Below are positions 1,509-20,128 of a stretch of 21,659 bases of DNA, piece after piece; the first letter of the stretch is position 1, and every line of letters begins with the position of its first letter. The translations under genes were made by a program, and so were the position numbers. The notes under the pieces are model-generated. The model had not been told where the DNA came from. It made no database searches and was given only the letters and a program-made list of their open reading frames with translations. The stretch comes from a virus: IMG/VR virus record IMGVR_UViG_3300035145_002537, positions 1 through 21,659 of that record. The stretch is one strand, 5' to 3'.

Positions 1509-1582
1509 TGGCATCGGAACAAGGAATCGAACCTCAGTTTACAGTTTTGGAGACTGTCGTGTTTCCACTACACTATTCCGAC
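1509..1582 (-). tRNA. tRNA-Trp (anticodon CCA)
   Basis: The minus strand folds into a full cloverleaf. The acceptor is GTCGGAA with TTCCGAT (the first pair is G-U). The D-stem is GTG/CAC. The anticodon stem ACAGT/ACTGT holds the loop CTCCAAA with anticodon CCA. The T-stem TGAGG/CCTTG has loop TTCGATT. The discriminator is G and the CCA end is encoded in the DNA. It begins 4 bases after the stop codon of the glycine-zipper gene, so it is probably cut from the same transcript. No intron or missing arm is visible. Confidence 0.95.
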
Positions 1583-1586
1583 ATAA

Positions 1587-2012
1587 TTACTTTTGAAAAC
1601 GAAGTGAGTGCTTTCTTCCGTTATACCAAAAAGTCACTGTTGAGTGAGAATACACTTCTTCTACAGTTTGATTATAACGTGTTTCTCTACGGCATTGGGT
1701 TTCTACACGACTTTGTGCTTTGGAATTATTGTGTCCAATAATACCGCCAAGCAATGCTCCAACTGCTCCACCGTTTTCTACATTCTTTGTTACATTGTTA
1801 CCAATGACTCCGCCAATGATCGCACCTGTTAGTGCATCACCCGTTTTGTCTCCGCCAACAACAACATCTTCACAAATTTCGATACTGTATGGTGACTTCT
1901 TTACTACAGATTTATAATGATCGTTTACAACTTCTGCGTGTGCCACACCTGATAAAAATCCTACGCCAATGCAGATGGCGACGGCATGGAAATAAAACTC
2001 TTTAAACTGCAT
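1587..2012 (-). CDS. Exported glycine-zipper (2TM-like) envelope protein
   Basis: The 141-aa protein has an N-terminal signal peptide, hydrophobic to about residue 26 and ending AHA. A glycine-zipper segment at about residues 57-93 is rich in GAIIGGVIG and GALLGGIIG patterns, the hallmark of the Rick_17kDa/glycine-zipper 2TM families. Those proteins sit in or at the outer membrane or periplasm. No lipobox cysteine is seen next to the signal peptide, so it is probably not a lipoprotein. Two pairs of Cys/Tyr-rich segments flank the zipper. AAGGA lies about 7 bases before the ATG. The gene sits between tmRNA and tRNA-Trp in one transcription unit and next to a porin-like gene. A role in envelope modification, lysis or exclusion is inference. 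Confidence 0.75.
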   Translation of the reverse strand: MQFKEFYFHAVAICIGVGFLSGVAHAEVVNDHYKSVVKKSPYSIEICEDVVVGGDKTGDALTGAIIGGVIGNNVTKNVENGGAVGALLGGIIGHNNSKAQSRVETQCRRETRYNQTVEEVYSHSTVTFWYNGRKHSLRFQK

Positions 2013-2035: not shown

Positions 2036-2299
2036 TAAGTGCAACTTTTCTGTTGCCAGGTAAGTTGCCAACCCCGTAGCCTAACTAATTAGGCCGCAAG
2101 AGCAAAGTTTTCGTTTGCGTCTATAGATTTGCTTGATTTACGGTCATCGCCTACCGGTAACTCCACAATGCCTAATCCGCCAGTCGATCCTACATCACCC
2201 CCTCAAAGCACACTCATTGAATGTGTTTTAAGTGATTGGTGGAGGTGCCGGGAATCGCACCCGGGTCCTGTTCGTCGTCGCCACGCTTCAACGTTACCC
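2036..2299 (-). ncRNA. ssrA: Circularly permuted two-piece tmRNA
   Basis: The gene is in permuted order. The acceptor piece comes first (about 2299-2237): T-arm CCGGG/CCCGG with loop TGCGATT, then CACCTCC, discriminator A and CCA (2239-2237). A 34-base spacer (2236-2203) with a small ACAC/GTGT hairpin follows. The coding piece starts at 2202 with GGGGGTGATG, whose first seven bases pair with CACCTCC to rebuild the acceptor stem (one G-U). The D-loop-like GGATCGAC, a PK1-like fold (2143-2117 region), the tag frame, a GCCTAA/TTAGGC hairpin spanning the tag stop, and an H-type pseudoknot (GTTG/CAAC interlocked with GCAACT/AGTTGC, ending 2041) follow. The resume region TAGAC-GCA matches known tmRNAs. 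Cleavage of the spacer would give two RNAs. The exact ends are estimates. Confidence 0.93.
2089..2118 (-). other. tmRNA proteolysis-tag reading frame
   Basis: From resume codon GCA to TAA it encodes ANENFALAA, so the full tag after the alanine carried by tmRNA would be (A)ANENFALAA. The ALAA end matches tags recognised by ClpXP/ClpAP. The stop codon lies inside a GCCTAA/TTAGGC stem, as in other tmRNAs. Confidence 0.9.
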
Positions 2300-2301
2300 T
2301 T

Positions 2302-2332
2302 TATTTATAACACCTCTATGCGAGGATGTCAA
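2302..2332 (-). promoter_or_regulatory. Combined sigma-70-like and T4-late-like promoter of tmRNA
   Basis: On the minus strand, consensus -35 TTGACA (2332-2327), a 17-bp spacer and -10 TATAAA (2309-2304). The -10 reads on as TATAAATA (2309-2302), the T4 late-promoter consensus, so one site could serve both programmes. The spacer holds a CCTC/GAGG dyad. The predicted start is the GGG at 2299-2297, the first bases of the acceptor piece. The promoter lies partly in the 3' end of the 99-aa gene. Confidence 0.8.
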
Positions 2333-2615
2333 GTTCTTTTTTAGTTTTTTGTTTGGATTTTGGTTGCCTAATTGGTTCAAGCCAACTATCGGCAATGTAT
2401 GCTTGTGGACTTGGTCCAAGTAATGTAGTTAGATCGTCTGCTTCTATCCACCAATAATGATCATGAACCAAACATTGGCAGTTCATTCCTCTAAATTGAA
2501 ATTGTTCGCCTACATTGTATTTTCCAATGTACTCTTTTACTTTGACTATTCTACCAACATTCTGTGGACGCACAGAAAAGACTATTCGGGCGATATCGCC
2601 TTGATTACATTTCAT
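2316..2615 (-). CDS. Conserved phage protein, 99 aa, function unknown
   Basis: The protein begins MKCNQGDIARIVFSVRPQN and has GRIVKVKEYIG in the N-terminal third, which suggests a small beta-barrel (SH3/KOW-like). It then has two Trp in HYWWIEADD and a C-terminal ADSWLEPIR segment, a pattern I associate with small phage proteins of unknown role. The tail is Lys-rich. It follows the cold-shock gene after 21 bases, so the two are probably co-transcribed from the late-type promoter at 2892-2899. Its last codons contain the -35 box of the tmRNA promoter. Fold is inference and no function is assigned. Confidence 0.7.
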   Translation of the reverse strand: MKCNQGDIARIVFSVRPQNVGRIVKVKEYIGKYNVGEQFQFRGMNCQCLVHDHYWWIEADDLTTLLGPSPQAYIADSWLEPIRQPKSKQKTKKELDILA

Positions 2616-12892: not shown

Positions 12893-13413
12893 TATAATCC
12901 TGCTAATTGTTTAATAATTGGATCTAAGTCTTTTTTATTATGAACTGTTTTGATTGGCTCGCCTGGCTTAACCTTTGGATTTTTTAAGGTTATCTCGTTA
13001 CCTTTGACGTCATCGATTTCAAACTCTTGTTCTTTGCCTTGGGCATCTGGCATAGGTAGTGTTGCACCTTTCTTAAGAACTTGTTGTGCCATTTTTCCTA
13101 CAGCCTTATCTGCTACTTTGCCCATGGCTTTGTTGGCTAATTTATTTGCGGCACTCTTCACAGCACCTTTGGCCATATTAGCCGCACCCTTCGCGGCCGC
13201 TTTACCCATTTGTGCTCCTACTCTACCAGCGGCTTTAACTCCAGCGCCAACAGCCTTTGCACCCATCTTGGCCGCACCTGCTCCTATACGTCCTGCCACT
13301 GCTCCAAGAGCAGGTAGTATTTCATCTAACTGTTCTTCGGTTAGATGAGGATAACGCTCTTTGAGTTTTGCTTTTACATTGTCTTCATTTATTTGAAATT
13401 CATTGTATCTCAT
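12892..13413 (-). CDS. Ala/Gly/Lys-rich protein with repeats, 173 aa
   Basis: After an N-terminus MRYNEFQINEDNVKAKLKER, close to a T4-type capsid-targeting sequence, residues about 36-115 are almost entirely Ala, Gly, Lys, Val and Met in repeats such as GAKAVGAGVKAAGRVGAQMG and KGAANMAKGAVKSAANKLAN. This would form amphipathic helices, possibly able to insert into membranes or bind DNA. The C-terminal 50 residues are beta-like (FEIDDVKGNEITLKNPKVKP). It may be an internal virion protein released on ejection; this is inference. It overlaps the basic-protein gene before it by 4 bases. Confidence 0.7.
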   Translation of the reverse strand: MRYNEFQINEDNVKAKLKERYPHLTEEQLDEILPALGAVAGRIGAGAAKMGAKAVGAGVKAAGRVGAQMGKAAAKGAANMAKGAVKSAANKLANKAMGKVADKAVGKMAQQVLKKGATLPMPDAQGKEQEFEIDDVKGNEITLKNPKVKPGEPIKTVHNKKDLDPIIKQLAGL

Positions 13414-13745
13414 TTGCGTTTCCTTGTTTTTCTTTTACTTGTTTTTGGTCTAATATTTTTCAAATTACGTCTACCTGATTTATTAATCCTTGTTAGACGT
13501 TGAGTTGTTCCTCTTGCTCTCTTTGTTCTTGCAGAAGCAACTTTCATTGCACTGCTTCTTCTTGCCTTTGCTTTTTTAATATTAATACTACTTTTAACTC
13601 TTTTAGGTTTATTACAAGTATCAGGTGATGCTACAATTCTACCTTTACGTGATCCCGCAGTGCAACGATATTTACGGACAAGTTTATTTCCCTTCCTGCC
13701 CATTATCTGAATAGCACCTTCTGTAAGGATTTCTGATATTATCAT
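13410..13745 (-). CDS. Very basic two-Cys protein, 111 aa (paralogue 1)
   Basis: The N-terminus MIISEILTEGAIQI is followed by a core KLVRKYRCTAGSRKGRIVAS and a second Cys, CNKPKRV, about 20 residues later; the remainder is dense in Arg and Lys up to KTSKRKTRKRK. It shares the RKYRCT-G-RKGRIV core with its neighbour at 13742-14053, so the two come from a tandem duplication. Such composition suggests nucleic-acid binding, perhaps with DNA in the capsid. The ILTE end of the N-terminus resembles a prohead-protease cleavage site. It overlaps both neighbours by 4 bases. Confidence 0.78.
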   Translation of the reverse strand: MIISEILTEGAIQIMGRKGNKLVRKYRCTAGSRKGRIVASPDTCNKPKRVKSSINIKKAKARRSSAMKVASARTKRARGTTQRLTRINKSGRRNLKNIRPKTSKRKTRKRK

Positions 13746-14053
13746 CTTCCTGTTTTAATCCTTGTTCTTTTACCACCTGAGGCTTTATTTAATTTTTGCA
13801 CTCTAATACTTGCAGGATTAACTCTTTTAGTCCTACGAGCCTTACGTGCCATTCTTGCTCCAAGTTTTGCTCTTGTTTTCTTCATGCGTATCTTTGCTTT
13901 TACATTAGGAGCCGCAAAACATTGTCCTATTTTAGAAACAATACGACCTTTGCGTTGTCCTGTCGTACAACGATACTTTCTAACTACTTTTTTTCCACTT
14001 CTTGCCCATATTTGTTTTTCAGCCAGAGGTGTGATAATTTCATCTATTTGCAT
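13742..14053 (-). CDS. Very basic two-Cys protein, 103 aa (paralogue 2)
   Basis: The N-terminus MQIDEIITPLAEKQIWARSG leads into KVVRKYRCTTGQRKGRIVSK with a second Cys in GQCFAAP, then an Arg/Lys-rich tail. The core matches the 111-aa neighbour closely, while the tails differ. It is the first gene of the basic pair, and its ATG lies only 8 bases after a CTAAATAC box (14061-14068) without a visible ribosome site. Likely virion-associated and DNA-binding (inference). The two conserved Cys may form a disulfide or bind metal. Confidence 0.78.
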   Translation of the reverse strand: MQIDEIITPLAEKQIWARSGKKVVRKYRCTTGQRKGRIVSKIGQCFAAPNVKAKIRMKKTRAKLGARMARKARRTKRVNPASIRVQKLNKASGGKRTRIKTGR

Positions 14054-19372: not shown

Positions 19373-20128
19373 ATGTCAATCAAAGACTTTACTTTTAACG
19401 AACGCAGTTTATTGTTCGCTAAATTAGCACAAATTGCATACTTAAAGCCTGAAGATGCAACCAAACACGTTAAAAAATTAGGCTTTACAACTGTAGAATT
19501 TTACAACATAGACGGAGCCCAAGCATATCGCTTTATGAACAAGCATGATCTGGTAATTGCTTGTAGAGGAACTGAGCCAACAGAATACAATGATATCAAA
19601 GCAGATGCAAACGCATTACCTGTTATTGCTGAAACTGTTAGCAGAGTACACAGAGGGTTCAAACAAGAAGTAGACGAACTATGGCCGTTGGTATTGGAAG
19701 ACCTTAAACGTAAAGCCAATGATAAAAAAGAAATTTGGTTTTGTGGTCATTCATTAGGAGCGGCTATGGCAACTATTATGTCAAGTCGTTGTCACTTATA
19801 TCCAGATGTAGAACCTGTACAGGAACTTTACACATTTGGCTCACCAAGAGTAGGTTGGCCAGAATATGTAAAGAGCCTTGGAGTTACACATCATCGTTGG
19901 GTAAACAACAATGACATAGTTACACGAGTTCCGTTATGGTTAATGGGATATAGACACCACGGCACTGAACACTATCTAAATGCCTATGGATTAAAACGTA
20001 GTCCAACAGGTTGGCAAAGAGTAAAAGATCGTTTCCGAGGTATGTGGATGGGTGTCAAACAAGGAAAAATTGATAACTTCTCTGACCATAGCATGGTTGA
20101 GTATGTCAAACACATTTCTAAATTATAA
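19373..20128 (+). CDS. Class-3 lipase (alpha/beta hydrolase)
   Basis: The only rightward gene. The 251-aa alpha/beta hydrolase shows the class-3 lipase pattern: LVIACRGTEP near 60-69 (oxyanion strand), the nucleophile elbow GHSLGA with S127, then FGSPRVG, D181 in NNNDIVTRVP and a His (196 or 200) in YRHHGTEHYLN, completing a Ser-Asp-His triad. It should cleave ester bonds in lipids. There is no signal peptide, so it would act in the cytoplasm, perhaps on the inner membrane at lysis or on host storage lipids. AAGGAGGG precedes the ATG. It ends convergent with the dehydrogenase gene, 6 bases overlapping, without a terminator between. An inverted, self-contained gene suggests late acquisition. 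Confidence 0.87.
   Translation: MSIKDFTFNERSLLFAKLAQIAYLKPEDATKHVKKLGFTTVEFYNIDGAQAYRFMNKHDLVIACRGTEPTEYNDIKADANALPVIAETVSRVHRGFKQEVDELWPLVLEDLKRKANDKKEIWFCGHSLGAAMATIMSSRCHLYPDVEPVQELYTFGSPRVGWPEYVKSLGVTHHRWVNNNDIVTRVPLWLMGYRHHGTEHYLNAYGLKRSPTGWQRVKDRFRGMWMGVKQGKIDNFSDHSMVEYVKHISKL

Follow-up and report, generated by a model that had tools for sequence, protein, structure and literature searches.

tmRNA releases ribosomes that have stalled and marks their incomplete proteins for breakdown. The tmRNAs of mycobacteriophages Bxz1 and Wildcat are one-piece molecules and are not known to be permuted. They are phage-borne, like the gene described here, and come with actinobacterial hosts (PMC4131195). 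Two-piece ssrA genes have already been published for the phages Melnitz and Mosig, and a 2021 survey counted tmRNA in 402 of 18,146 phage genomes, with 53 distinct two-piece forms, mostly aquatic (PMC9004378). A preliminary description of the present locus that treated a phage tmRNA as unusual was therefore overstated on this point, although the gene is indeed phage-borne. A 2025 database holds 79 unique phage tmRNAs (PMC11915505), and a 2022 paper drew phage tmRNAs along host lineages, with Melnitz as the exception. As far as the literature found shows, prior listings of phage two-piece tmRNAs came without an analysis of tag evolution.

Three described systems are among the closest to the gene examined here. 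Melnitz (MZ577097, a Methylophilales phage; PMC9004378) is likewise a marine tailed phage with a permuted alpha-type tmRNA of the same tmRNA clade, and it carries TTGACA-N17-TATAAATA upstream of ssrA. It differs in its 14-aa tag (ANDNYVPVDYALAA), in a long spacer with an open frame, in a glutamine riboswitch behind ssrA, and in its gene neighborhood, where ssrA adjoins a nuclease and a late co-activator rather than nrd genes. Mosig EXVC030M (MT647606), whose host is SAR11, shares the permuted form, a 9-aa tag, and membership of the phage tmRNA clade, but its tag is GEDNFALAA, its body has diverged, and its gene lies at another genome position. The chromosomal tmRNA of SAR11 (Pelagibacterales) is also permuted with a 9-aa tag of the ANxxxALAA kind, but it belongs to a separate clade and carries the tags ANESYALAA, ANDKFALAA, or ANNKFALAA. 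The glutamine riboswitch by ssrA, reported for both Melnitz and Mosig, is common and not defining, and our window had no match to the Rfam Glutamine model.

A complete two-piece tmRNA gene

The window, meaning the whole 21,659-base IMG/VR virus record analyzed here, contains a real permuted tmRNA gene that is not degenerate (Table 1). ARAGORN called a permuted tmRNA (tmRNA*) at c[1998,2331] with the tag ANENFALAA. Two Rfam models matched over their full length, RF04321 (tmRNA_permuted) with 121.8 bits at 2297-2089 (cut-off 47) and RF01849 (alpha_tmRNA) with 113.8 bits at 2336-2038 (cut-off 50), and the model E-values of 1e-23 to 1e-30 are well past chance. Alphaproteobacterial chromosomal copies score higher on RF01849, at ~195-313 bits for those listed vs. 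113.8 for the window.

All three calls bear out the preliminary description's claim of a circularly permuted two-piece tmRNA with the tag ANENFALAA, and the check that it had proposed, a search with Rfam permuted-tmRNA models, gave these two matches well above their cut-offs. The short tag with its ALAA end was read from the frame as nine residues, and the alpha type was also right. Both strands of the suggested acceptor stem (GGGGGUG/CACCUCC) were located, and their pairing covaries in relatives. The limits given, 2036-2299, were near-exact, but the strand was missing and the predicted promoter at 2332-2302 was left outside.

Table 1. Features of the permuted tmRNA gene and its surroundings in the window
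Feature	Position	Strand	Basis or remark
Permuted (two-piece) tmRNA gene, complete	2038-2297	minus	ARAGORN and two Rfam models
Predicted promoter	2302..2332	minus	TTGACA 2332-2327, 17-nt gap, TATAAATA 2309-2302
Acceptor piece	2237..2297, 5' end approximate	minus	RF04321, RF01849, covarying consensus fold
T arm	2264-2248	minus	
Acceptor 3' strand CACCUCC	2247-2241	minus	
Encoded ACCA after acceptor 3' strand	2240-2237	minus	
Intervening spacer, 34 nt	2203..2236	minus	Expected to be removed in processing
Coding piece	2038..2202	minus	ARAGORN, RF01849; G1 at 2202, 3' end near 2038
Acceptor 5' strand GGGGGUG	2202-2196	minus	
Piece-joining helix	GUAAC 2297-2293 (5' strand) with GUUAC 2157..2161 (3' strand)	minus	
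Tag frame, ANENFALAA codons	2118-2092	minus	ARAGORN
Tag stop TAA	2091-2089	minus	
3' hairpin of coding piece	2068-2041	minus	
Upstream neighbor, phrog_2529, function not assigned	2316..2615	minus	Found in 61 related loci
Downstream neighbor, glycine-zipper 2TM protein	1587..2012	minus	PF05433; 13 related loci
tRNA-Trp (CCA), downstream, outside tmRNA	1509..1582	minus	ARAGORN; RF00005 61.9 bits

The transcript would be cut into two RNAs, with the spacer presumably removed by host enzymes. A hairpin in the spacer prolongs the acceptor stem (fold −17.7 kcal/mol, z −2.75), and spacer length ranges from 9 to 205 nt across relatives. The alanine identity elements G3-U70, A73, and an encoded CCA are all present, and G3-U70 is the pair recognized by alanyl-tRNA synthetase. 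We considered whether the two halves might be separately encoded in some relatives and rejected this, as the relatives that lack CTCCACCA in the nearest 110 nt proved, with two exceptions, to have a longer spacer. In one of these two (L138), the acceptor piece was recovered by a looser search, and the other (L163) is a cut-off record.

Some of the longer spacers have contents of their own. The 205-nt tmRNA spacer of one contig (L162) contains, at 945-1130 on the minus strand, a complete 62-aa gene that is 69% identical to the Melnitz gene directly upstream of ssrA, and open frames of 31-68 codons occur in the spacers of L122, L125, L138, L155, L157, L172, and Melnitz. A ribosome-site-like sequence accompanies several of these long-spacer frames, and the frames would be protein genes lying inside the segment that a tmRNA loses in processing. 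Another spacer (L413) holds a tRNA-like T arm (GAGGTTCGAATCCTC).

Phage setting

The claim that the gene is phage-borne stood, as the window is a virus record with phage genes on either side of the tmRNA. Its nrdA and nrdB have their best matches in marine T4-like phages (71.5% and 66.5% identity, respectively), and further genes encode a phage-type exonuclease, a protein from a virion structural family, and a DUF6267 protein. The nearest tmRNAs sit in viral contigs with a matching gene neighborhood, and one related contig of 107 kb has matches to 13 window proteins together with a baseplate-hub lysozyme and a DNA ligase. Among named phages, we found no direct DNA relatives of the window tmRNA. 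Gp23 (T4 capsid family) was tried as a marker and set aside; it was absent from 20 related viral fragments and found only in Mosig and Melnitz.

Elsewhere in the window, two adjacent and similar small proteins (13410-13745 and 13742-14053) are very basic, share RKYRCT, and have no Pfam match. A class 3 lipase gene (19373-20128) lies on the strand opposite to its neighbors and has a counterpart of 70% identity in the 107-kb contig.

Predicted promoter

The TTGACA-N17-TATAAA form upstream of the gene is the sole strict sigma70 match in the window on either strand. Before the acceptor piece, TTGAC precedes a box resembling T[A/T]TAAATA in 61 of the 61 listed subclade sequences, and in 48 of the 61 the box reads TATAAAT, a −10 box fitting the T4 late consensus. 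The strict promoter regex matched 60 of 63 records plus three ANESYALAA-tagged phages of the window's subclade, and most of the remaining phage tmRNA lineages in the collection lack this form. The −35 box of the window shares bases with the end of the upstream gene, so the overlapped protein gene may explain some of the conservation of the box. The promoter pattern points to recognition by a host-type RNA polymerase.

Late expression, as the preliminary description had it, was unsupported, since the upstream element is sigma70-type, though with a −10 box that agrees with the T4 late consensus as well. The reading of TATAAATA at 2309 as a T4 late promoter loses weight from the comparison, as TATAAATA varies among the 61 listed sequences and every one of them retains TTGAC. 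An additional late use of the −10 box is possible.

Conservation and selection among relatives

To compare the gene with its relatives, we gathered these from IMG/VR, which gave ~100 unique phage sequences among the matches listed. The 7-bp acceptor stem was fully paired in 104 of 104 unique phage sequences among the matches listed, with the acceptor strand taken as the nearest upstream CCACCA, and shuffled partners reached a maximum of 92%. One spurious record aside, there are nine acceptor-stem types with both-sided changes at pairs 4, 5, and 6, and the G3-U70 pair is constant in every genuine record. In a consensus fold of 40 sequences, pairs of the T arm and of the piece-joining helices likewise change on both sides. 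Within the GUAAC/GUUAC helix, 199 of 200 cells over the 40 sequences are paired, and two of the five pairs vary on both sides.

The tag is encoded by 18 DNA variants of AN[DE]NFALAA, which differ from the commonest form at 65 synonymous codons and 1 replacement codon, compared to an expectation of 20 synonymous to 70 replacement among the single changes possible; these counts, like those for the stem, are not independent events because the relatives share ancestry. The codon pattern shows that it is the tag peptide itself that strong selection keeps. Purifying selection of this kind shows in turn that the tag is translated, although the purpose of the tag is not thereby given.

Tags of candidate hosts

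The tmRNAs of SAR11 genomes, which were found via a 16S probe sequence, are permuted and have 9-aa tags, most commonly ANESYALAA but also ANESYAIAA, ANDKFALAA, and ANNKFALAA, and the SAR11-type tag pattern matches 86 of 147 SAR11 genomes. In our alphaproteobacterial tag sample, 58 of 60 tags were longer than nine residues, and one of the two 9-aa tags came from the SAR11 order. Judged by sequence, the window tag is SAR11-like in length and form, because SAR11 tags have nine residues and the other sampled alphaproteobacterial tags are nearly all longer. That SAR11 hosts have 9-aa tags refutes the idea that such a tag is a phage invention.

At residues 3-5, however, the window tag reads ENF, not the ESY or xKF of the sampled SAR11 tags. 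The AN[DE]NFAxAA pattern was present in 60 viral contigs but in 0 of 297 SAR11 genomes and 0 of 385 alphaproteobacteria, and with the stricter GGATCGAC pattern, it was found in 0 of 84,980 genomes scanned. The comparison with SAR11 tags proposed in the preliminary description thus agreed in length and form, but the exact tag occurred in no sampled bacterium.

SmpB was detected in 9 of 10 SAR11 genomes. In some bacteria, SspB assists ClpX in tag reading, and we considered it as a tag-reading adaptor here. It was not detected in any of 10 SAR11 genomes, with a positive Caulobacter control, and this absence would suit a short tag read directly by ClpX. For the hosts themselves, the lack of SspB across these ten genomes (G002 and others) may explain why SAR11 tags are short.

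Two further observations concern tags in other viruses. One viral contig has, next to numerous tRNAs, a one-piece tmRNA with an unrelated body but the identical tag ANENFALAA (L345:4045-4349; RF00023, 116.9 bits), and the same is seen in L354 and L382. Some viral permuted tmRNAs, e.g., those of L052 and L077, have unusually long tags, such as ANDNALSNVTFVDFSAPVTAVNEDFALAA.

A probable phage lineage with probable tag switches

Trees of tmRNA were computed without the tag codons and from a limited host sample. A careful tree with 93 rows is divided by a branch supported at 100/100, which separates 59 of 59 phage or viral rows, including Mosig and Melnitz, from SAR11 and other alphaproteobacteria. 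A larger quick tree agrees, with the exception of one viral contig. Of 173 rows from phages or viruses, 151 have a GGAG motif ahead of the tag, vs. 1 of 89 host rows. The body of the window tmRNA has a median identity of 51% to SAR11 and does not group with it. This comparison suggests that marine phage tmRNAs are a separate lineage of their own.

Phages carrying the exact SAR11 tag might be expected to have captured a SAR11 gene, but this was rejected. The tmRNA bodies of all 59 viral contigs tagged ANESYALAA are of the phage TGGAG type. A topology uniting SAR11 with the main ANESYALAA phages was rejected (p-AU 0.003), as was the descent of every ANESYALAA phage from one origin (p-AU 0.00003), both values being weakened because the groups for the AU test were picked after the first tree had been seen. 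Three ANESYALAA phages (L396, L413, and L448) lie within the window's wider subclade and have the same promoter and gene neighborhood; compared to their ANENFALAA relatives, they read AGT-TAY for AAC-TTY, with identical flanking codons.

The best reading of these observations is that tags have switched repeatedly and that the SAR11 tag took part in this. Within the window's subclade, ENF and ESY were apparently exchanged at least two times, as a six-base patch with phage-like surrounding codons. A single marine-phage tmRNA lineage might even change only its tag to match that of each infected host, a tentative idea to which we give slightly less than an even chance. No report of tag switching or of a single phage tmRNA lineage was found in the open-access literature, and the comparison result, i.e., a phage clade apart from hosts together with several tag switches, looks new.

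Proposed function

We favor, at a probability of roughly 70%, that the gene encodes a working phage supplement to host trans-translation that relies on the host's SmpB and on a degradation tag resembling that of the host. The two-piece tmRNA would be transcribed from its own sigma70-type promoter during infection, and host enzymes would remove the spacer and charge the phage RNA with alanine. Host SmpB would then bring the phage tmRNA into stalled ribosomes; it is the host protein that is assumed because no known SmpB is brought by the phage, and a search of 18 records from related phages, including two complete genomes, found none. Ribosome stalling could be frequent as mRNA is degraded in infection, and the phage tmRNA would rescue these ribosomes while its ALAA-ended tag would direct the stalled product to host ClpXP. 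The tag of this lineage of marine phages would accordingly be tuned to the host degradation machinery.

Besides rescue of stalled ribosomes, the preliminary description had raised diversion of host tagging, in which the phage tmRNA competes with the host's and alters the fate of stalled proteins, e.g., through a protease-distinct tag. Although ENF at residues 3-5, seen in no sampled bacterium, would be in line with this, the ALAA end is kept and ENF and ESY switch in place. Imitation of the host tag fits better because many phage relatives have exactly the SAR11 tag ANESYALAA, and we consider diversion unlikely.

A decoy is less probable again. Its tRNA-like part would sequester SmpB and block host trans-translation, as suggested for phage DS6A, whose tag-less type of molecule inhibits tmRNA (PMC4131195, PMC11915505). 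Such a molecule needs no tag, however, and the window gene has an intact tag frame under peptide-level selection, which leaves this reading quite improbable.

Prophages do integrate at ssrA (PMC9004378, PMC11915505), so that imprecise excision could leave a phage with a functionless passenger from its host. We regard this as highly improbable given a full-length gene with covarying stems, a conserved tag, and its own predicted promoter. Moreover, no integrase was found among the window proteins searched, and the phage genes form one clade rather than repeated captures. Finally, a bacterial chromosome fragment misfiled as viral can be virtually discounted: SAR11 hosts have the same gene class, but the flanks are phage nrdA/nrdB, exonuclease, and virion families, related viral contigs share the neighborhood, the related 107-kb contig has the lysozyme and ligase noted above, and the tmRNA body is only 51% identical to SAR11 at the median.

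The idea that tags follow hosts is testable with Mosig, a SAR11 phage with a culturable host. If a single lineage does change its tag to match each host, the tag would be readable as a host signature and trans-translation would be a target of phage adaptation. A nine-residue peptide could then link metagenomic phages to their hosts, and ribosome rescue would join the host systems taken over by phages.
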